The position numbers and the translations under genes are program-made. Below are positions 58 through 20,202 of a DNA stretch of 21,235 bases, in pieces (position 1 is the stretch's first letter; every line of letters starts with the position of its first letter). The stretch comes from a virus: the IMG/VR virus record IMGVR_UViG_3300045922_000157, positions 1 through 21,235 of that record. One strand, written 5' to 3'. Under the pieces are notes generated by a model. That model worked only from the letters and a program-made list of their open reading frames with translations. It searched no databases and had not been told where the DNA came from.

Positions 58-597
58 ATGCCTCTGATTACGGCGGCAGATCTTGCGTCGTGGCTTGGCG
101 TTGATCCATCTTCGCCGAGGCTCGATGCCGCAATCTCTGTCGCGCATGATCTTGCCGCAGCATATGTCGGCACTGATTCGCTTGAGGCGATGGATCGCAT
201 CGAGACAATCACTCCGCCGCGCGATCGCAACACGTTGGAATTGCGTTATGGGCCGCTGACGGAATTGATCTCGGTGATGATCGCTGGAGATCCTGTCGGT
301 GATATTGAGGCTGGCGCGTGGATCATTGGCCGGAGGAACGGATTCAGGGCGGGAGTCGTGCATACGGTTGCGTATCGCACTGGGTGGGATCCGGATGACA
401 GCGGCGCAGGCGCACCATCGCAGGTAAGGTCTGCGCTGCTGATGATTGCATCTGCGGTACACGCGCGCGGGATTGACGGCGGCACTAAAACGAGTGAGCG
501 TATTGGAGACTGGGCTGCAACTTTTTCTGTTGGCATCGGCATTGTTCCTGATGATGCGCGCCTGTTGTTGAGGCATTATCGTCGTCCGCAATTATGA
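58..597 (+). CDS. Head-tail connector (HK97 gp6-like / phage gp6-like adaptor)
   Basis: The 179-residue product has the layout of gp6-like head-tail connectors. It opens with an N-terminal helix of the ITAADLASWLGVD type, continues with a segment around LRYGPLTELISV and a central YRTGWDPDD strand/loop, and has an alpha-helical C-terminal half. Such proteins form a ring under the portal vertex and create the docking site for the neck proteins. The ATG at 58 is preceded by CGGGAG at 46-51, a good ribosome binding site. The stop codon overlaps an ATG (ATGA at 594-597), and the 3' end of the gene runs into the first degenerate repeat of the mini-array at 590-764. The family is inferred from pattern and position; a related neck adaptor is the alternative. 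Confidence 0.75.
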   Translation: MPLITAADLASWLGVDPSSPRLDAAISVAHDLAAAYVGTDSLEAMDRIETITPPRDRNTLELRYGPLTELISVMIAGDPVGDIEAGAWIIGRRNGFRAGVVHTVAYRTGWDPDDSGAGAPSQVRSALLMIASAVHARGIDGGTKTSERIGDWAATFSVGIGIVPDDARLLLRHYRRPQL

Positions 598-764
598 GCG
601 ACCTCCGCCGCATCGTAGTGGAGACGGGTTATGACCATCCGGCGAGAATCACCATGCGATCTCCGCCGCCTTGTAGTGGAGACCCGTACGGCTTGAGCCG
701 GGCGGCCAGTCCCCGATCATCGAGCGGCGTCACCCTGCGACCTCCGCCGCTTGGTAGCGGAGAC
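590..764 (+). CRISPR. Degenerate three-repeat CRISPR-like mini-array in the head-tail operon
   Basis: Three 36-nt elements lie at 590-625, 648-683 and 729-764, separated by 22 and 45 nt. On the plus strand each ends with the same hairpin as the main array read on its minus strand: CTCCGC, a 9-nt loop, then GTGGAG or GCGGAG, then AC. Compared with the main array (reverse complement), element 2 matches the repeat at 17483-17518 at 35 of 36 positions. Element 1 is identical to the repeat at 17556-17591 over its last 28 nt, and element 3 matches the consensus at 34 of 36. The cluster fills most of the 263-nt gap between the connector and the DUF115-like gene and would be transcribed with the late operon. 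Any third guide would begin at 765. There is no cas gene nearby. It may be a functional solo array or a relic. Confidence 0.85.
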
Positions 765-7085: not shown

Positions 7086-10000
7086 CAGTGCAGCATTGGA
7101 GCGCGAAATACATATCGCGCGCAGATGAGTGGCGCGACGACGGACCTCCATGCTGGGCGCTCGCGCGCAACGTACTGATGCGGGAACGCTCGCTTGCGCT
7201 TCCGTCGTATGTCGGACCAGCGAGCGCAGACGAGGGTCGCGAATTGCGAGCGCTCGTCACGCGCATCGGATCGCTGTGGCCGTGGCGTCGTATAGATAGC
7301 GATCACGCGCGCGAGTTCGATCTCATTCTATTTCGCGGCCCGACACCTCACATAGGCATTGCGATCGACAAACACCGCATGCTGCATGCCTTGCCTGACG
7401 GATCTGCGAGGGTCGAGCGATACGATATAGGCCGATGGCGCATGCGCATGGAAGGAATCTATCGTCATACGGCGCTCGACGGCGAGATCGTCACTGACGG
7501 CGCACGTGTCGTCGTCATTGATCATCCGTTCATTCCGACGCGCGATAGGCGAGAATTCGTTGCGCCGGCCGGACTCAGCATAGAGGATATCGTTGAGATC
7601 GCGGTGCCGGATCATGCGGTGCGGACTCACTCATTCATACGCGTCGCAGTCGGGACGGAGATCATCGATCGCGCTTGGTGGGCGAGGACGCGCCCTCGCC
7701 CCGGAGCTACGGTCATCATCAGATCGATTCCGAGTGGAGATTTTCTTCGCTCAGGGCTGATGCTGCTCGTCGCGTTTGCCGCTATCAGTGTCGCGCCGAT
7801 CTTGGCTCCGCAATTGGTCGGAGCGCTCGGCGGCGCGATCGGATTGCAGACTGCAACCGGGCTGATTGGTCTCGGCATCATCACGGCAGGCACGCTGCTT
7901 ATCAACGCGCTGATCCCGCAGCGATTGCCTCAGATTGAGCGCGCGAATATCGAGCAGTCTTCCGCGCGCACGATCAATGGATGGCGCAATCAGATCGCGC
8001 CGCGTTCCCCGATTCCCGCTGTGCTCGGCAGGCACCGCGTCGCGCCGCCATATATCGTCAAGCCGTATCGAACGATCATTGGCGACGACATGTATGTAAC
8101 GGCAGCATTCGTTATCGGCTATGGTCCGGTCACGTTAGATGATCCGCGATTCGGGAACACGCCAGTCACAGAGTTCGGCGGCGATGTGCAGATGGAATTG
8201 CGCGAGGGCCGCGTTGGCGATCCGCCGCTGACGCTCACAGCGAACACCGTCCTTGAGAGCGGACTGCAAGTCACGCTGCAAATGTTTGAGGATCATTTCC
8301 GCACGACGCCACGCGATGTAACGCGCGCGACGATCATGCTCGTGTTTCCTCAGGGGATAGGGTATCTCAACAAGAATCAACAACTCGTCGCGCATACGGT
8401 CGCGATCAATATCAAGCAGCGACGGTCGGGCACAGATGATCCATGGGAGAATGTGCCGGGACTTACTGAGGGCGGTGACGGCACGGCCTGGTACATCACT
8501 GCCGCTCGTCGAGGTACGATCTATAGACAGTTCACGTGGGAATTCCCGGAGCGCGGGCAATGGGACATCGCCGTTCGCCGCGTCAATCAAGAGTATCACA
8601 AGGTCGATTTCAATTTCGTCGATGAAGCGCAGTGGTTCGTGTTGCAAACGGAGCGTCCGGAATATCCGATTGCGTGCCCAATTCCTCTTGCGCTCGCTGC
8701 ATTCCGCGCTCGCGCGTCTGATCGCTTGCAAGGAGAGATCGACCAGTTCAACGTCATTGCGCAGTTGCTCTGCGATGATCTTGTTGATGGCGAATGGGTT
8801 CCTAATCAGCCAACGTCAAACGTTGCGTCGATGTTGCGGTGGATGTTGACGGGTCCTGCAAACGCTATGCCGGTGGAATTCACGCGCATTGACGATGCTG
8901 CATTCGCTGAGTTGCACGCGCGCGGGCGGACATATAATCGCGTCCATGATTTCGAGGGATCGTTGCAGGACGCGCTCGCCGATTGCGCCGCAGCTGGACG
9001 AGCGATGCTACGCGATACCGGCACGGAATGGACCGTATTCATTGACGAGGCGACGGATCGCATTGATGCGCACATCGCGGCTGTCAATGTCAGCGATGTG
9101 TCGTGGACGCGCAAATATCTCACGCCCCCTGATGCGTTCCGCGTCAGATTCATCAATGCGGATCGAGACTACATCGCGGACGAAATGATCGTGCCGTGGC
9201 CGGATGGACCAGAGGTTCCGCAGCGACTCGAAGACATCGAGTTTCCAGGTCTCGTCCACGCAGACGATGTTTGGATGGCTGCGCGGCGCAGGCAATATGA
9301 ATTGATTTATCGACTCGATGAGATCACGTGTACGCTCGGTGTTGACGGCCTGATGATTGCACGCGGTGATGTCATTGCCGTCAATTTGCCAGCTATCGTC
9401 AGGCATCATGTTGCTGCGCAATGTACGTCGATACACGGCAACAGAATCACGATTGCCGCTGATGTCGATATCGAGGCTGGCCGTAGTTACGGAATACGAG
9501 TGCGGCACGTCGACGATTCGGGAGAGCGATCAATCGTGCGCAAGATCACAGCGCCGGCAGGCATGCGGCGATCATTCAATGTCATGGGAGAAGCGAGTGA
9601 CATTGCTGTTGGCGATCTCGTCATGGTCGGCGAATACGGATTCGAAGCAATGACGATGCGCGTTCGCGATGTCGAGGGCATCGACAATGCGCGCGTCCGC
9701 GTGACATTGATCCCGATGGCACCTGAGATCGACGCGCGCATGGAAGATGAAGAGCCGCCAGAATTCGACGGCCGTTATGGGGAGGTGATTGATTCCAGTT
9801 CCATCGCCCCTGAGCCACCTATTATCACGCGCGTTGTTTCGGGAGACAAGATCAGCACGGCGGCGCATGATATCGAGGTGTTTGCGCGTCCGTCCTTCCT
9901 TGGCATCGTCGCTGTGACGATCGAGATCGAGCACCGATTGCTCGGAGATAGCGGGTGGTCCGGCCCTGTCTCAATGCCGGCGGGACAGGGAATGGTAGGT

Positions 10001-10405: not shown

Positions 10406-10812
10406 GCGGCAAGGTATTCACAGGTGAATTGCCGGAAGCCGACAGCGTCGATGATATCATCGGCAATGCAACGGTTGACGGACGCGCTCGCACTGTACGA
10501 ATCGCGGTCAGCAATTTGATTGCCCAGATGGGGATTATTGGACAAGAGGATATGGAGACAGACGCGGACGAAACAATTGTCGTGTCGCAAAATGCTCCGT
10601 ACATACGACACTCTGCTACGTTGACAGACGATCGCGTGATCACGTTGTCAACGACAAACGCGTATCGCGGAGCGCGTTTTTTGGTGACACGCACCGGATC
10701 TGGCGCATTCAATTTATCCATTGGGGGATTGACTGACCTTTCGCAAGGAGAATGGGCGGAGGTAATCTTCAACGGAACATCTTGGTATCTTTCATCTCGC
10801 GGGTCGCTGTGA
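10402..10812 (+). CDS. Small tail fibre-associated protein with fibre anchor domain
   Basis: The 136-residue product begins MSGKVFTGELPEADSVDDIIGNATVDGRARTVRIAVSNLIAQ (residues 1-42), which is clearly homologous to the first 42 residues of the large fibre encoded next. The remainder is beta-rich (YIRHSATLTDDRVITLSTTNAYRGARFLVTRTGSGAFNLSIGG) and resembles the short beta-prism modules found in fibre proteins. I infer that it attaches to the same tail-tip site as the main fibre and may be a partner, a decoration protein or a truncated fibre. Its start overlaps the previous stop (ATGA) and its stop overlaps the next start (TGATG). Confidence 0.7.
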   Translation: MSGKVFTGELPEADSVDDIIGNATVDGRARTVRIAVSNLIAQMGIIGQEDMETDADETIVVSQNAPYIRHSATLTDDRVITLSTTNAYRGARFLVTRTGSGAFNLSIGGLTDLSQGEWAEVIFNGTSWYLSSRGSL

Positions 10813-13800
10813 TGACATCAAAGATCTTCACCGGAAATCTTCCACTCGTTTATCAGATCCAAGAGATTATCGGGCACGCAACGGTCGACGATCGTCTGCG
10901 CACTGTACGCATGCGTGTTACGGATCTCTTGCAATCAAGCATTGGAAGGGTTCCTGAACACTTTGGCTACACAGGAGATGATCCATCAACAGATGATGAT
11001 GCATTACGAGCCTGGGCGGCAGCTGGCGGATTGCTGTCTCTCATGCCTAACAAAACATATGTGCTGACGTCAGGATCTCCGCTTGAGATTCAGTCTGGTT
11101 CTGTTGTCAACTTCAACGGCAGCAAACTAAAATTCAAGAAGACTGTAACAGGAAAGCCGATCCGAATCGCATATAAAGAGCACGTCGTCATTTGGATGCC
11201 GCGTCTCGAATTCGATCGGTCAGATATCACGTTCTATGAATTCCTAAATGATTACGTCGTCAACAACGGCGCTAACACGTTGCCGTATTACAAGGGAGGA
11301 ATCACCGTCGCCAACTCGTCGCACGTCGACATATTCTATGGCGAATTCGTCGATCTATGCGACATCGGCATCGTTGTTGGAGAAGATGCGTCGGTGAGTC
11401 CATTCGTTGCGGGCAGATGTGATTACGTGCGCATTGTCGGCAACACGTTTCGCAATTGTTGGTACGGCCCAACTATCAACGTGTTTCCTAAGGTTGCCAG
11501 CGAAGGCAATGTTCTTGCCGACAACGTCGCCATTGACTGTGGTTGGTACGACAACGGCGTCTTCAAGTGGAACAACTGCGAAATCACATCATCAGGGAAT
11601 CGTATCTATCGCGCACGAGGCATCGGGTGGGGTGACGGAGTTGGTAATCGTGCCGCAGTGCATGACAACTACACCGAAGACTGCATGGCGCAGCACATCG
11701 GGTATACGTTCGGGGACTGGCAGGGCGCGTTCGGAACAATCGTGCCCACGTTGGAAAGCTTAACAGATCGGGACAATACATGCGTTGAGACGACGTGGTG
11801 TGCGGTTATCGAGGACACAGTTTGCGCGCAGCAAATCAAAGAAACGCCAGGATATTTGAATCTCAACGGATCGCTCGTGAGCGGCGGCAAGGCAACAATG
11901 CCGACGCGACTGTCGCTGATTATCGCGACGGAGAATGACAACAGCAGTGTTCAGATCAGCATCACCGGCACGCTGTGGGATGAGTCCTCCCCGCGAACGG
12001 TCGTGACGACGCTGCCGGTGCAGGGCGACCCACCGAATCCAGCGAAAAAGTTGGTTCTCCTGCAGAATGTCGCAGGGCTGGAGTGGCGCGAGATCACGTC
12101 GATCAGCCTGTCCGCCGGCATCACCGGATGGATCAGGATCGGCACGACGCCGACCTATGCGGGCGAGGCTGCGATCACGATCAACTCGTCGGGCTATGGG
12201 ATGACCAATCATCCCGAGAGCTACGTGATGCAACGCAGCAAGATGCTGATGCGTTCGCGCAGCTTCCTGTCGCTGCGCGCGATGCAAGAGATCAAAAAGT
12301 TCCGCATCGTCGATCCGGATTGGAAGTACGCAGGCCCTCCTAGACCATATGGCGCGATCGTCGTTGACGATCTCGCTGGATCTGCGCCGCGTGATTTCGA
12401 GTTCATTGGTGGTCACATTGATGTTGAGGCAGCGCAATCGCCATATAGCAACATTTCCATATATGGTCCGTCATCTCGCATAATTGGAACAGAGCTGATC
12501 GGGTTCGGATTCCTTCCGATCCGCGTGTTCCCTGGCGCGAACAATTCCGCGCTCGTGAGTGGCGTGCGTGCTGTGCGATGCAATCAATGGGACGAGACGT
12601 CCAATTTGCATCTGTTCAGCGCGCTTGTCGGCACTAACGCAACGTATGAATGCACGATCAACGTTATCGGCAATACGATCAGCAATGAGGGAGACGGCAG
12701 ACTCGGCGCATGGTGTTACTCGACTGACGCATCCAAGCGCCCTGTATTCCGTATCGGCGGAAACAACAGCGACGACGATAGCATCAAGGCTGGGGCGAAT
12801 CTTCTGGAGACGATACGTCCGTTGCGCATGCAGCGTGTTGGCAACGCGAATGCGACGATCAATCCTGGAACAGAGATGCTGCAGATTACTGCTACACTGA
12901 CGTCGCCTAGAACATACACGCTTCCGCCAGCCATCAATTCAGATCCGTCTCGACCGCTCGTTGTCGTTGATGTCGGCGGCTATGTGAGTGCGACAAATTA
13001 CGCGCGGATCCAGCGATCTGGAACGGACACCGTCAACGGCACGACGCACATCGATCTTACTATCGCGCGAGGGCGCGTGACTCTGACGAACGATGGCGCG
13101 TCCGCGTGGACTACATATCCGCTCGACAGCGTCACGACTGGAACGAGTGGACATGTGCTCGGATTTCTTGACGGGAACAACACTCACAGCGGCAATAATA
13201 CGTTCAGCGGTACAACGACGGTCAGCAACACCACGGATGCGACGGACTTCAACACCGGCGCGCTGCGTGTCAGCGGAGGCACGAGCATCAACAAGACGTT
13301 GTATGTCGAGAAGATGCGTGTCAAGACGACGCCGGTACTGCCGGAGGCTGCGTATTGGGGTTGGGGCTACGGCAACGCGCTGCGGATCACATACGACAGC
13401 GCACCGTATATCGGCATCACGCTAGGCACGTTCTCTGGATCTGGCTCGCCGTTCGTAGGGTTCAACGCTGAACATGGTGCCAGCGTAAATACATTGCGCA
13501 ACATGGGCGGCGGTGTTGTGCGCGGCTCTGCGTTCGTGCGCACGGTTACGGATCTGGAGTATCGCGTCAACAGTGTCGCAACTGCGAACGCAGACTTCAC
13601 CAGCGTCTCGACGGTGGTGTCGTTCGGCGAGAGCGGCATCAGGCTGCCGGGCGAGGCATCCATTGCGAGCGCCACAACGACAAATCTCGGCAGCGTCGCC
13701 GAGACGCGCGTGCTGGTTACAGGCACGACGACAATTCTTTCGTTCGGATCGCAGCCGAATCTCATCAAGATTGTGCGCTTCGCTGACGCGCTGGTGCTGA

Positions 13801-14774
13801 CGCACAATGCGACGACGATGGTATTGCCTGGCAACGCGAACATTACGACGGCTGCCGGGGACATCGCTGCGTTCGTCAGCGATGCGTCTGGGAATTGGCG
13901 GTGTATCTGGTACCAGCGGGCCGCGCTGGGGCCGAGACTCGCTCCGCGAGTCAGCACTTATTCGTCGAGCGGATCGCACGCAGTGCATCCGAACGCGACG
14001 CATCTGTGGATTTATTGCGTTGCAGGTGGCGGTGGCGGAGGAAGTGGTGCGAGCGGTGACAACACGGCAAACCGCGGAGGCGGTGGTGGCGGTGGTGCCG
14101 GGGGACGCGCTTCTGCGTGGTTCCGCACCACGGATCTTGCGACAACGCTCGGCGTGACGGTTGGCGTAGGCGGCAACGGCGGCACCGGCGTTACCGGCAA
14201 CACGAACGGAAACAACGGCAATCCAGGCTCTGCATCGCTCGTATCGAGCAGCTCCGTGACGATTGTGGCGGCTGGAGGAGCTGGCGGAGGCACGGGCGGT
14301 CAGTCGGGTTCAGGCGGCACTGGCGGGAATGGTGGGACGGGTCTGCCGACAGCGGCGAATGCCGGAGGCAACGGCGGCACGAGCGGGGCAGGAGCAAGTG
14401 GACTCAGCGCGACGCATCGCGAGGCCCCTGGCGGCGGCGGCGGCGGCGCAGCTGTCACGACTGCAGATGCGACATTCAACGGAGGCACCGGCGGCACGGG
14501 ATCGAGCAATTTGACTGCTGCGACAGGTGGTGCAGGCGGAACGGCTCCCGGCGGCGCTGGCGGCGCCGGCAGCGCAAAGGCGCGTGAACGCTGTTCTGGC
14601 GGTGGCGGTGGCGGCGGCGCGAGCGGGCTCACGGAGAATGGCGGCGCTGGCGGCAACGGCGGATTCCCAGGCGGCGGAGGTGGTGGCGGAGGCGCAACGC
14701 GCAATGCGTATACGAGCGGTGCTGGCGGACGTGGTGGCGACGGCGAGATCACCATCATCGAGTTCTTCTCATGA
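10812..14774 (+). CDS. Tail fibre / tailspike with beta-helix body and glycine-rich tip
   Basis: The 1320-residue product has three recognisable parts. Residues 1-42 are the anchor shared with the preceding gene. From about 45 to 500 there are repeated short strands and a FNGSKLKF / HVDIFYGEF / VRIVGNTFRNCWYG / GNRIYRARG pattern typical of right-handed beta-helix (pectate lyase-like) spikes. Around residues 800-830 is the motif NTGALRVSGGTSINKTLYV common to fibre shafts. Residues about 1070-1310 are a Gly-rich domain with long GGGG runs, opening HLWIYCVAGGGGGG, like the Gly-rich receptor-binding tips of other phage fibres. The frame is open to 10752, but TGATG coupling and the conserved KIFTG start place the true ATG at 10812. 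Base composition changes along the gene, suggesting mosaic exchange. Confidence 0.88.
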   Translation: MTSKIFTGNLPLVYQIQEIIGHATVDDRLRTVRMRVTDLLQSSIGRVPEHFGYTGDDPSTDDDALRAWAAAGGLLSLMPNKTYVLTSGSPLEIQSGSVVNFNGSKLKFKKTVTGKPIRIAYKEHVVIWMPRLEFDRSDITFYEFLNDYVVNNGANTLPYYKGGITVANSSHVDIFYGEFVDLCDIGIVVGEDASVSPFVAGRCDYVRIVGNTFRNCWYGPTINVFPKVASEGNVLADNVAIDCGWYDNGVFKWNNCEITSSGNRIYRARGIGWGDGVGNRAAVHDNYTEDCMAQHIGYTFGDWQGAFGTIVPTLESLTDRDNTCVETTWCAVIEDTVCAQQIKETPGYLNLNGSLVSGGKATMPTRLSLIIATENDNSSVQISITGTLWDESSPRTVVTTLPVQGDPPNPAKKLVLLQNVAGLEWREITSISLSAGITGWIRIGTTPTYAGEAAITINSSGYGMTNHPESYVMQRSKMLMRSRSFLSLRAMQEIKKFRIVDPDWKYAGPPRPYGAIVVDDLAGSAPRDFEFIGGHIDVEAAQSPYSNISIYGPSSRIIGTELIGFGFLPIRVFPGANNSALVSGVRAVRCNQWDETSNLHLFSALVGTNATYECTINVIGNTISNEGDGRLGAWCYSTDASKRPVFRIGGNNSDDDSIKAGANLLETIRPLRMQRVGNANATINPGTEMLQITATLTSPRTYTLPPAINSDPSRPLVVVDVGGYVSATNYARIQRSGTDTVNGTTHIDLTIARGRVTLTNDGASAWTTYPLDSVTTGTSGHVLGFLDGNNTHSGNNTFSGTTTVSNTTDATDFNTGALRVSGGTSINKTLYVEKMRVKTTPVLPEAAYWGWGYGNALRITYDSAPYIGITLGTFSGSGSPFVGFNAEHGASVNTLRNMGGGVVRGSAFVRTVTDLEYRVNSVATANADFTSVSTVVSFGESGIRLPGEASIASATTTNLGSVAETRVLVTGTTTILSFGSQPNLIKIVRFADALVLTHNATTMVLPGNANITTAAGDIAAFVSDASGNWRCIWYQRAALGPRLAPRVSTYSSSGSHAVHPNATHLWIYCVAGGGGGGSGASGDNTANRGGGGGGGAGGRASAWFRTTDLATTLGVTVGVGGNGGTGVTGNTNGNNGNPGSASLVSSSSVTIVAAGGAGGGTGGQSGSGGTGGNGGTGLPTAANAGGNGGTSGAGASGLSATHREAPGGGGGGAAVTTADATFNGGTGGTGSSNLTAATGGAGGTAPGGAGGAGSAKARERCSGGGGGGGASGLTENGGAGGNGGFPGGGGGGGGATRNAYTSGAGGRGGDGEITIIEFFS

Positions 14775-15079
14775 CGATCATCTTTGCTTGGCTGATGCTG
14801 ATTGTTTTTGCTGCTGATGATAGCGCGTGGTTGCGTTCGTGGATTCCTGCGCATTGTTGCGTGACCAATAATTGCTGTTTCCGCGTCACGTATCGAGATG
14901 TTACACCGCTGCACGGTGACAGATGGCGCATCAATGCTACTGGGCAGGAGTTGCCACGCACGGGCTATTCTCCAGATGGAGAGTATTGGCGCTGCGCATG
15001 CGATCCGATCAAAGGAAAATGGACGGTACATGAGCGCGCGTTCACGCGGTGTTTGTTCACGCCACTGCCGTCGACGTGA
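14771..15079 (+). CDS. Secreted cysteine-rich small protein, function unknown
   Basis: The 102-residue product begins with a hydrophobic signal-like segment MTIIFAWLMLIVFAADD, followed by a Cys-rich domain: HCCVTNNCCFRV, then GQELPRTGYSPDGEYWRCACD and a final RCLFTP. Seven cysteines in about 80 residues suggest disulfides and a periplasmic or membrane-facing location. Similar small Trp/Cys-rich proteins occur next to lysis genes in alphaproteobacterial phages, but I cannot name a function. Its ATG overlaps the fibre stop (ATGA at 14771-14774), so it is coupled to the late operon and leads directly into the endolysin gene. Confidence 0.7.
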   Translation: MTIIFAWLMLIVFAADDSAWLRSWIPAHCCVTNNCCFRVTYRDVTPLHGDRWRINATGQELPRTGYSPDGEYWRCACDPIKGKWTVHERAFTRCLFTPLPST

Positions 15080-17022: not shown

Positions 17023-17364
17023 ATGAGCGAAATGGGTGACCCGCTTTCGTTTGCCGGAGTGAAGCTTGTGCATTTGATCGCCGGCACGGCGGGCGGCATT
17101 GTGCGAGCAATCACGCGGCCTGATCTGTCGTGGGGTCGACGCATCAGCACTGGCATTGCTGGCGCTCTCGTCGCTGCGTATGGAACGCCGGTCGCGTCGC
17201 CGTTGCTGTGGCACCATTTGCCGGAACAGGTTTTGTCTCGCGTGACGTATTCAGAAATTGACGGACTAGTAGGATTCGTGCTCGGCATGACCGGCCTTGC
17301 GGTTGCAGATGCAGTTGTAAAGATTGTGCGCAAGTGGATCGATAGGGTATCTGCTCGCGCGTGA
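17023..17364 (+). CDS. Holin-like membrane protein
   Basis: The 113-residue product has three candidate membrane segments: VKLVHLIAGTAGGIVRAI (about 13-30), ISTGIAGALVAAYGTPVASPLL (about 41-62) and IDGLVGFVLGMTGLAVADAVV (about 79-99). It ends in a basic tail KIVRKWIDRVSARA, as in holins. The ribosome binding site GAGGAG at 17014-17019 is strong. As the last gene of the rightward late operon it would control timing of endolysin release. Its final codons and stop overlap the outermost, truncated repeat of the CRISPR array (17352-17387), so the array tail abuts or has invaded the gene end. Confidence 0.65.
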   Translation: MSEMGDPLSFAGVKLVHLIAGTAGGIVRAITRPDLSWGRRISTGIAGALVAAYGTPVASPLLWHHLPEQVLSRVTYSEIDGLVGFVLGMTGLAVADAVVKIVRKWIDRVSARA

Positions 17365-18262
17365 TGCGGCGGAGGTCGCAGGGTGATGATGCGGATGTCG
17401 CGCCGATCGTCTCCGCTACAATGCGGCGGAGGTCGCAAAGTGACCACATCGTCTTGACATAGGAAGGCATCGCCTTCTTCGGGTCTCCACTACAAGGCGG
17501 CGGAGATCGCATGGTGACGCCCTCTCCCGGAATGGGCAAGTATGGCATGTATGGGGTCTCCACTACGATGCGGCGGAGGTCGCGTGGGAACATCACGACC
17601 GCCCGCGACATGATCGTGTCCTACAACCAGCCGTCTCCGCTACCAAGCGGCGGAGGTCGCATGGTGGCACTTCGGGCCAAGCGGTGTCGGCAAGACCTCG
17701 CTGCTGTCTCCGCTACCAAGCGGCGGAGGTCGCATGGTGGCACACGTTCCAGAGGCGCGTCATGCCATCGAGTTCGGCATCGTCTCCGCTACCAAGCGGC
17801 GGAGGTCGCATGGTGGCACGCCTACCGCTGTTTCAACCTCATCGAAGAACTGGGGGTCTCCGCTACCAAGCGGCGGAGGTCGCATGGTGGCACACGTTCC
17901 AGAGGCGCGTCATGCCATCGAGTTCGGCATCGTCTCCGCTACCAAGCGGCGGAGGTCGCATGGTGGCACGCCTACCGCTGTTTCAACCCCATCGAAGAAC
18001 TGGGGGTCTCCGCTACCAAGCGGCGGAGGTCGCATGGTGGCGGTTGAACCCGCGCGACTGCGGGATCGGCGGCCAGGGTCTCCGCTACCAAGCGGCGGAG
18101 GTCGCATGGTGGCATTCCACGAGTTCGATCTGCGCGACGCCCTGGCGGTCCGTCTCCGCTACCAAGCGGCGGAGGTCGCATGGTGGCAGTGGACGAGCAG
18201 GGCGTCTCGATCGGCTGGAAGATTTCGTCTCCGCTACCAAGCGGCGGAGGTCGCATGGTGGC
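17352..18262 (-). CRISPR. CRISPR array, 13 repeats of 36 nt and 12 spacers, beside the Cas12-type gene
   Basis: Repeats start at 17352 (truncated), 17409, 17483, 17556, 17633, 17706, 17782, 17856, 17932, 18006, 18078, 18152 and 18227. The nine from 17633 on are identical; the other four are degenerate. Spacers are 36-41 nt except S1 (21 nt). On the minus strand the repeat starts GCCACCATGCGACC and ends in a hairpin: CTCCGC (nt 14-19), 9-nt loop, GCGGAG (29-34), then AC. A 3' hairpin next to the spacer is the type V crRNA form, so transcription is leftward, with degenerate repeats at the trailer end. The G-U change in the variant repeats keeps the stem paired. S6 = S8 match the effector gene; S7 and S9 differ by one base. 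The first repeat lies 25 nt from the effector stop, with no separate leader. Confidence 0.97.
17706..18005 (-). repeat. 150-nt tandem duplication of two repeat-spacer units inside the array
   Basis: The block 17706-17855 (repeat, S6, repeat, S7) is repeated directly at 17856-18005 (repeat, S8, repeat, S9) with the same 150-nt period. The only difference I see is T at 17839 against C at 17989, within S7/S9. The copies must therefore be recent, and the self-matching spacer has been doubled. Growth by recombination between repeats is the simplest cause, in keeping with the absence of adaptation genes in the window. Confidence 0.95.
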
Positions 18263-18287: not shown

Positions 18288-20069
18288 TCAAGAGGGTTTC
18301 TCATCCGATGCGAGACCTCCAGCTTTGGCGGCTTTCGCGGCCTTCGATCTCTCCCATCGACCAATGTAAGTTGTTGGAAGCACATGCGCGAGCGCTGCGC
18401 CGTCAGCGGCCACAACATCAGCGCTCGCAACGGCAGCAGCGCAAATCGTGCGCGCGGCATTGACATCCTGGTCATGCACCGAATCACAGCCGGCGCACGT
18501 GAAATACAACTCCTTCCGATCGCTGACATATGTGTGCGTTCCGCAGTCCCCGCAAACAAACGATGACGGCCCATCGTGTCTATAGACGATGCGGCCTTTC
18601 TTGCGTGCGGCATTGATCAGCATTGTCGTGAACACACCTGGCGATGCGAGCTTGCGCATGCCTCCAGACACCGGCGTGTTTCCGTATCTATGCTCACCGA
18701 TCCGCTTCCAATCAATGTTCTCAATCCCGATCACGCGATACGTATCGGTGATGCGATTGACGACCTGTTGATAGAAATCCTTACGTTGACGCATGATACG
18801 ATGCGTCATGTCTGAGATCAGTCGCCATGCGCGGCGATCTTCCGATCGCCACTCCAGCATGCGCTGTACGATCGGATCGCTATCGCCGAGCGCAGTAACG
18901 AGCGCATCAATTGCACGCTGCACAAGCCCGTTGCGGATGCGCTTTTCTTCGATAGCAGCGCGCCATTCACTCGCGACGTCGTCCGGCAGCAACGCAATAC
19001 GCGCGCCGACATGCTCAATGATCTCATTCAGCGCAGATCTCGCCACCGATTTCATTTCATTGATCAAATCATTGCGCCGCATGATGTGCGCCGGCATCAG
19101 GATGAATTCGTGCGCATCACGCGAATCGACCAGCGTTGCAACGCGCAGCTCGTCTCCTTCTACACGCCAGCCGACATCGATCCCACACGCGTTGATGCGC
19201 GCGTTGACTTCCTCGATTCCGTCAACGCGGCAGACGAAGTTGACGTACCACTTCCATCGGCCGCGCCTGCGATCAAACGGGTGCGCCTCGCGCGTCACGA
19301 TGACGGACTGCACGCGCGCTCCATCCGGCAGAGGCCGCGACATGATCATCGGCCACCTGACGGTGCGCCGTACACGATCGCGCGAATAGACAGTAAACGA
19401 AAGCGTGCGATGTTCTGGCCTGATCTTTCCGCGCCCGATGTCCGTTGCGGGAAGAATGCCGACCTGCTTATCGCCTGTCATGATATCGTCGACGGATGCT
19501 CCGTTGATGATCTGATTGACCAGGCGATCAGACGGCGCATTCTGTTTGCGCAGCATCGTTCCGTCTTTGATTGCGCGCGACCGAGCCGTCTCATACGACT
19601 CGATAACCGCGTTGTAATTGCACCAATACAGCCCGCTTTGCTGGCGCGCTTGCTTGACCTTATCGACACGAATCTGATTGATGCGAGCAATCTCCTCGCG
19701 CATCTCGTTACGTGCCGCGCGCTTCTTCTCAACAAGCTGCTCCGTCAGCGCCTTTCGCTCTGCGCGCAGCGCCGCAAGACGGTCCTTGTCGGTGTCATTC
19801 TCTGAGCCGCGTTTGCTCCGCCGGCTCTTATTTAGTTCCTTGCGCTCTCGGATTATTTCGTCGATCTGCCGCTGCACCGCCTCGAGGCTCTCTTGCAGAC
19901 TCGCAACAGCCTCAGAAGATGACACGATGCGGCGATATTCCTCGCGATGCTCAGCCTCGATATCGACCAACACGTTCCAGAGGCGCGTCATGCCATCGAG
20001 TTCGGCATCGCACTCGGCATGCCAGTCAAGCGGGTCCATGAGTCGATAGCGGTGGCAAACGATGCGCAT
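18288..20069 (-). CDS. cas12m: Compact type V CRISPR effector, Cas12m-like (V-M / V-U1), with intact RuvC triad
   Basis: The 593-residue product is an RNA-guided TnpB/Cas12-type protein. Residues 1-50 (MRIVCHRYRL...WNVLVDIEAEHREEY) open a recognition lobe, followed by a charged coiled coil (52-140) and SGLYWCNYNAVIESYETARSRA (145-166), strongly reminiscent of Cas12m. The RuvC parts are ACGIDVGWR (Asp298), RVIGIENIDW (Glu450), a zinc ribbon (Cys506/509 and Cys525/528) and HDQDVNAARTI (Asp535). All three catalytic acids are present, whereas characterised Cas12m proteins bind but do not cut dsDNA. The ATG at 20069 has a perfect AAGGAGG; the frame extends to a GTG at 20168 without that support. 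The gene is co-directional with the array 25 nt downstream and lacks cas1/cas2. TnpB alone is excluded by the array; other compact subtypes (Cas12J, Cas12L, Cas12f) remain possible. Confidence 0.85.
   Translation of the reverse strand: MRIVCHRYRLMDPLDWHAECDAELDGMTRLWNVLVDIEAEHREEYRRIVSSSEAVASLQESLEAVQRQIDEIIRERKELNKSRRSKRGSENDTDKDRLAALRAERKALTEQLVEKKRAARNEMREEIARINQIRVDKVKQARQQSGLYWCNYNAVIESYETARSRAIKDGTMLRKQNAPSDRLVNQIINGASVDDIMTGDKQVGILPATDIGRGKIRPEHRTLSFTVYSRDRVRRTVRWPMIMSRPLPDGARVQSVIVTREAHPFDRRRGRWKWYVNFVCRVDGIEEVNARINACGIDVGWRVEGDELRVATLVDSRDAHEFILMPAHIMRRNDLINEMKSVARSALNEIIEHVGARIALLPDDVASEWRAAIEEKRIRNGLVQRAIDALVTALGDSDPIVQRMLEWRSEDRRAWRLISDMTHRIMRQRKDFYQQVVNRITDTYRVIGIENIDWKRIGEHRYGNTPVSGGMRKLASPGVFTTMLINAARKKGRIVYRHDGPSSFVCGDCGTHTYVSDRKELYFTCAGCDSVHDQDVNAARTICAAAVASADVVAADGAALAHVLPTTYIGRWERSKAAKAAKAGGLASDEKPS
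19970..20009 (-). other. Perfect 40-nt protospacer for spacers S6 and S8 inside the effector's own gene
   Basis: The 40 nt here are identical to spacers S6 (17742-17781) and S8 (17892-17931). The site covers codons 21-34 of the effector gene, nt 61-100 of the coding sequence. With the array read leftward, the crRNA has the sense of the mRNA, so it would pair with the template DNA strand and not with the transcript. The 5' flank on the coding strand is GAGTGC, i.e. TGC next to the protospacer: not the TTN reported for Cas12m, though it would fit the looser TBN of some Cas12J proteins. Confidence 0.97.
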
Positions 20070-20202
20070 TGATCCCTCCTTGCGCGCTGTCGTGTCAGTC
20101 ACCAACGGTCGACGCCACATCATCTGATGTCGTCGACCACGCGAACGAAATAAGCGCCACAAACTCACACAACGCGGCGATTAATGCATCGCATTACGCT
20201 CA
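20070..20202 (-). other. Spacer region before the effector gene; only short frames seen
   Basis: The minus strand holds a 12-codon frame starting at 20203 (MSVMRCINRRVV) and an open continuation of the effector frame back to a GTG at 20168. There is also a frame without a good start that reads ALIAALCEFVALISFAW before a stop. The last looks protein-like and hydrophobic and may be a decayed small membrane gene. I see no clear promoter, so the effector is probably transcribed from further upstream. Confidence 0.4.
20073..20080 (-). promoter_or_regulatory. Strong Shine-Dalgarno site that decides the effector start
   Basis: On the minus strand AAGGAGGG lies a few bases before the ATG at 20069. 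It is among the strongest ribosome binding sites in the window and supports the 593-residue form over the 626-residue open frame. Confidence 0.8.

Follow-up and report, generated by a model that had tools for sequence, protein, structure and literature searches.

The window analysed here is a whole stretch of 21,235 nucleotides from an incomplete phage genome (IMG/VR record IMGVR_UViG_3300045922_000157). It opens with a head-tail adaptor gene (58–597, + strand; phrog_442, E 2e-22), whose TGA stop overlaps, in an ATGA, the start codon of an 84-codon open frame on the same strand (594–848). This frame terminates 12 nt upstream of the next gene, and the genes that follow were assigned by PHROGs as sialyltransferase-like, head closure, neck, tail terminator and major tail protein. 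At the junction 1526/1527, directly after the sialyltransferase-like gene, related contigs carry about 1.4 kb of extra DNA. The 84-codon frame encloses an entire mini-array of three type V-M CRISPR repeats, which are on the + strand and lie between the head-tail adaptor gene and the neck genes. An initial annotation had placed three repeats among structural genes, 17 kb from the effector and read in the direction of late transcription; the PHROGs head-tail context and the agreement of strands bear this out.

The first repeat of the mini-array (598–625) is a 28-nt core with the loop variant CATC and lacks its 5′ part; the second (648–683, variant GATC...CCTT) and the third (729–764) have the full 36 nt. 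Only two spacers are flanked by repeats on both sides, spacer 1 of 22 nt (626–647, + strand) and spacer 2 of 45 nt (684–728, + strand). Allowing for one mismatch, there are 15 copies of the core, GCGACCTCCGCCGCNTNGTAGNGGAGAC, in the window, three on the + strand (598, 656 and 737) and 12 on the − strand (17409–18254), and none of 100 dinucleotide-preserving shuffles of the window contained a match. A third guide had been proposed from position 765 on; the segment 765–860 (+ strand) proved instead to be a constant flank without spacer, identical at 95 of 96 positions in all the relatives, which holds the conserved end of the open frame and its stop codon (846–848). We saw neither a promoter nor a leader for the mini-array, no promoter or terminator prediction rose above chance, and Rfam gave no match. 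The G+C content of the two spacers is above that of the phage; since the main-array spacers of the relatives are G+C-rich as well, this is uninformative about the mini-array.

The main array (17364–18262, − strand) follows directly after the effector gene, about 17 kb from the mini-array and on the opposite strand, and consists of 12 full repeats plus a terminal half-repeat, with trailer-end variants at 17409, 17483 and 17556. The half-repeat (17364–17386) starts right after the stop codon of a holin-like gene, and this junction is kept in a related 18-kb contig. As had been noticed from the letters, the variants of the mini-array mirror this trailer end in the same order. In fact, the first repeat is identical over 28 of 28 nt to the reverse complement of 17556–17583, and the second matches the repeat at 17483–17518 in 35 of 36 nt, with an exact run of 38 nt (649–686 with 17480–17517) that extends 3 nt into the spacer. 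The third repeat is a mosaic, its 5′ half resembling the repeats of the relatives and its loop those of the window's main array. It does share its start with the outermost half-repeat, as claimed, over 21 nt (TCACCCTGCGACCTCCGCCGC) rather than 12, and the half-repeat lies at 17364–17386 and not at 17352.

The effector gene (18288–20072, − strand) encodes a Cas12m-like protein of 594 aa (type V-M, V-U1), with a likely ATG start at 20072 behind an AGGAGG-like site. It matched PADLOC Cas12u1 with an E of 1.7e-65 and the solved Cas12m 23vw with an E of 1e-36 over 515 residues; it aligns with V-M effectors of plasmids, and the RuvC residues D-E-D are present by alignment. The repeat of the Pelobacter plasmid pPRO1, GTTGACATGCGTGCTCCGCCGCTTTGTAGTGGAGAC, is nearly the same as that of the window. 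V-M repeats have in common a 23-nt block with a six-pair stem, a nine-base loop and a final AC, into which every element of the mini-array fits, and their stems covary (98.7% of cells paired; 17 double-changed cells vs 5.6 in shuffles). Judged by the effector family and by 36-nt repeats with a 3′ stem-loop, the phage encodes a type V-M system. Cas12m is known to process its own pre-crRNA and to bind dsDNA in a PAM-dependent manner without cutting, which protects against plasmids and phages (PMC11013384, PMC10442227). For D-E-D variants no dsDNA cleavage was found (PMC11013384), and cleavage was left open for such clades (PMC10442227).

The main array contains a 150-nt tandem duplication of two repeat-spacer units, 99% identical (17706–18005). 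Through it, one spacer is present in two copies (17742–17781 and 17892–17931, − strand), which are identical over 40 nt to 19970–20009 (− strand), corresponding to nt 64–103, or codons 22–35, of the phage's own Cas12m gene, in coding sense and with the 5′ flank GAGTGC. Such a spacer could repress the Cas12m gene, or be harmless if a PAM is absent. Self-matches were also observed at other V-M phage loci. A spacer of locus L041 (15084–15120) matches the terminase small subunit gene of its own genome in 36 of 37 nt (G002:23698–23734), a target that sits between two isolated repeats (23187 and 24062), and the newest spacer of L043 matches its own integrase gene (G008:31048–31081). Compared with the otherwise matching array of L034, L043 has two extra leader-end spacers (11737–11886), which suggests recent acquisition; Cas1 was found in none of the V-M phage records, which are fragments. 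Self-matching spacers may be tolerable if the effector binds without cutting, or if the PAM is missing.

A search by repeat pattern retrieved three other IMG/VR contigs (L010, L011 and the 18-kb contig, which contains L009 and L012), and in all three the mini-array lies between the same flanks as in the window. In the 18-kb contig the main array is likewise at the other end and on the opposite strand; the longest stretch of the window without close alignment to this contig is the tail fibre region (10425–14825), which ends in glycine-rich repeats. The flanks of L010 differ from those of the window at 7 of 1,355 nt (99.5% identity). At this distance the two mini-arrays have no spacer in common, and at each of the three positions the repeat variant is a different one. 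A 24-nt loss and a 72-nt duplication set L011 and the 18-kb contig apart from L010, and in one group of contigs the first repeat is lost. The hairpins are intact in all the alleles. Since the spacers differ wholly at 99.5% flank identity, their replacement must be much faster than the change of the flanks. A collapse of the main array during assembly is an unlikely source of the mini-array: the window allele was seen in one assembly, but its spacers 1 and 2 are absent elsewhere in the contigs compared, and three assemblies yielded the other allele.

The comparison of alleles bears on the origin of the mini-array, for which the initial annotation had offered a segmental copy or common ancestry with the main array. 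Going by the loop letters, CATC-CCTT-CATT is the likely ancestral order, from which the window would have departed at element 3 and the relatives at element 1. This is the trailer order of the window's main array, and to recover it from the two lineages it is enough to assume the conversion of a single element in either one, so that every trailer variant occurs in mini-array order between them and a shared ancestry is supported. A segmental copy that included the spacers was not accepted, as only spacer 1 is weakly similar to the main-array spacer at its position (P 0.012, for that pair), and spacer 2 is not (P 0.98). It should be kept in mind that the sample of mini-arrays amounts to few contigs and only two independent lineages.

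One explanation is that the locus is an inert relic, what rearrangement or copying has left of an old array, unused and unselected, in which differences between spacers reflect chance recombination among phages. The truncated first repeat, the odd lengths of the spacers, the loss of the first repeat in one contig group and the failure to find targets are what such a fragment would lead one to expect. On the other hand, all the alleles keep intact hairpins, with spacers replaced within 0.5% flank divergence; the open frame is maintained across alleles, and an unrelated V-M phage, described below, has a similar remote mini-array. A decaying relic is unlikely because spacers have been exchanged while stems stay intact. 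Decay of the hairpins in relatives, which the initial annotation had named among the signs of a mere relic, was not seen, and the alleles speak instead for a locus under active turnover. We therefore regard an inert remnant as an unlikely, though still credible, account.

The search for targets was unproductive. Neither the four related contigs nor collections of phages, plasmids, viruses and genomes gave a convincing protospacer for the spacers of the mini-array, and nothing there exceeded the level of chance; matches of concatenated spacers in phage and plasmid collections were rejected on this ground. Searching with the seed of spacer 1 gave nothing, and the seed of the relatives' spacer 2 matches the relatives only. 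For the seed of the window's spacer 2, matches of 20–23 nt turned up in one viral and two Streptomyces contigs; the sequences diverge beyond them, and they were judged to be chance.

In all the alleles seen, the frame that hosts the mini-array can be read from its ATGA start through to one shared TAG, with arrays of 171, 177 and 225 nt, each divisible by three and free of stops, and the other two frames contain 2–4 stops. As a control, main-array spacers were inserted at random, and the frame remained open in 13.6% of cases. In so small a sample, the keeping of the frame is suggestive only. A real small virion or assembly protein, in which the repeats would be coincidental coding sequence, could account for a frame that is open in every allele and whose last 27 codons are conserved. 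However, the peptide derived from the array is completely different between alleles, the reading frame of repeat 2 shifts between the two lineages, the product had no family match in protein-family searches, and the match to CRISPR repeats is far beyond chance; we consider this possibility very improbable. Given the lack of peptide conservation, the likely reason for the effect, should it be genuine, is that translation through the array avoids polarity.

To place the mini-array among V-M systems, we looked for related loci. The effector sequence alone as a query retrieved no viral relatives; an alignment-based search gave 14 viral loci with V-M effectors. Where the repeat was known, the whole viral records were searched with it, and four have repeats apart from the array beside the effector. 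The contig of L037 has a three-repeat mini-array 58 kb off, on the opposite strand and beside a tail protein gene, made of the trailer variants of its own main array. In the contig of L042 one repeat lies 149 kb away, by a baseplate hub gene, and in that of L041 the two single repeats at 23187 and 24062 lie around the terminase small subunit gene. In L030, which is the closest viral relative of full length, the effector is flanked by an array on either side, and a lone repeat (7149–7184) lies inside a 319-aa open frame. No remote repeats were found in the contigs of L034 and L038, in phage Rctr197k or in the Pelobacter plasmid. A position near virion genes is frequent for the remote repeats, but is not significant alone, because such genes occupy much of a phage genome.

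The lone repeat inside a coding frame in L030 would fit a different function, in which the repeats are sites for Cas12m to cut or bind the structural mRNA, so that the level of effector sets the expression of the adaptor relative to the downstream genes and the spacers hardly matter. The cutting of pre-crRNA by Cas12m (PMC11013384) and the position of the array, in a frame that remains open and tightly coupled to the genes on either side, are compatible with such a switch. Nevertheless, a single repeat would suffice for it, yet three repeats and two spacers persist, and the spacers have been replaced wholesale. For these reasons, we think it improbable that RNA processing or regulation is the main role of the locus.

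The explanation that we favour, with a confidence somewhat better than even, is that the locus is a mini-CRISPR array serving, in trans, the type V-M system of the same phage, with an ancestry shared with the trailer end of the main array and with spacers that turn over quickly. Several lines of evidence lead to this reading: the repeats match the phage's own array and are read with the operon, the effector is of type V-M, the stems show compensatory changes, the same site carries different spacers in three contigs, and remote repeats occur in four other V-M contigs. Against it count the short spacer 1 of 22 nt, the first element without its 5′ part, the absence of a leader or promoter and the lack of a convincing target. 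In the proposed mechanism, the RNA of the structural operon, presumably transcribed late, would carry the three hairpins; processing by the phage's own Cas12m would release one or two crRNAs, to be loaded on the same effector. Guided in this way, Cas12m could bind DNA of a rival phage or another competing element and block transcription from it without having to cut. The spacers would be exchanged probably by recombination between repeats.

Mini-CRISPR arrays borne by viruses are known from the archaeal portogloboviruses SPV1 and SPV2 (Medvedeva et al. 2019, PMC6858448), and those of phages have been reviewed (PMC11656645). As in these viruses, the viral genome carries one or two spacers (two in the window), and the arrays of relatives lie at comparable places with other spacers; moreover, phage mini-arrays are without leaders and are thought to change by recombination (PMC11656645), as may be the case here. 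By contrast, the known viral mini-arrays depend on host Cas proteins and have host-type repeats, whereas the repeats of the window match the array of the phage's own Cas12m; they are intergenic, with targets in related viruses, while the one described here lies within an open frame of a structural operon. Type V-M itself is known from plasmids and prophages (PMC11656645). The V-M loci of Pelobacter pPRO1, Methylomonas pLM6 and phage Rctr197k resemble the window in effector family, in the array directly after the effector and in the 36-nt repeats with a six-pair stem and a nine-base loop ending GAGAC, but only one array is present in the Pelobacter plasmid and in Rctr197k, whereas in the window a second one lies on the other strand, in the structural operon. 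A landfill jumbo phage (PMC12607003) similarly has arrays away from any cas gene in one genome, which were suggested to act in trans; there, the link to an effector is open, whereas in the window both arrays are tied to one Cas12m by the identity of their repeats, and the alleles show spacer turnover. Isolated CRISPR repeats in phage genomes are also known as single repeat units or RNA anti-CRISPRs (PMC11656645), which mimic host repeats and poison host Cas proteins; those of the window match instead the phage's own system and are not solitary, as the three of them enclose two spacers. In the literature searched, which covered few subscription papers, we found no description of a mini-array within a structural operon acting in trans to the phage's own Cas12m.

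If functional, the mini-array would provide the phage's own Cas12m with guides made together with the transcription of the structural genes, and thus a concrete case of stage-specific guide supply. With spacers replaced at 99.5% flank identity and no Cas1 seen, the process of exchange should be directly observable in phage populations, and since remote repeats recur in unrelated V-M phages, a general rule becomes testable. More speculatively, it may be common for V-M phages to keep small guide units that change quickly within their structural operons, serving their own Cas12m in trans, which would let the choice of guides depend on the stage of infection; combined with spacers directed at the phages' own effector, terminase and integrase genes, type V-M might then serve for programmable gene regulation and the silencing of rivals, beyond plain defence.
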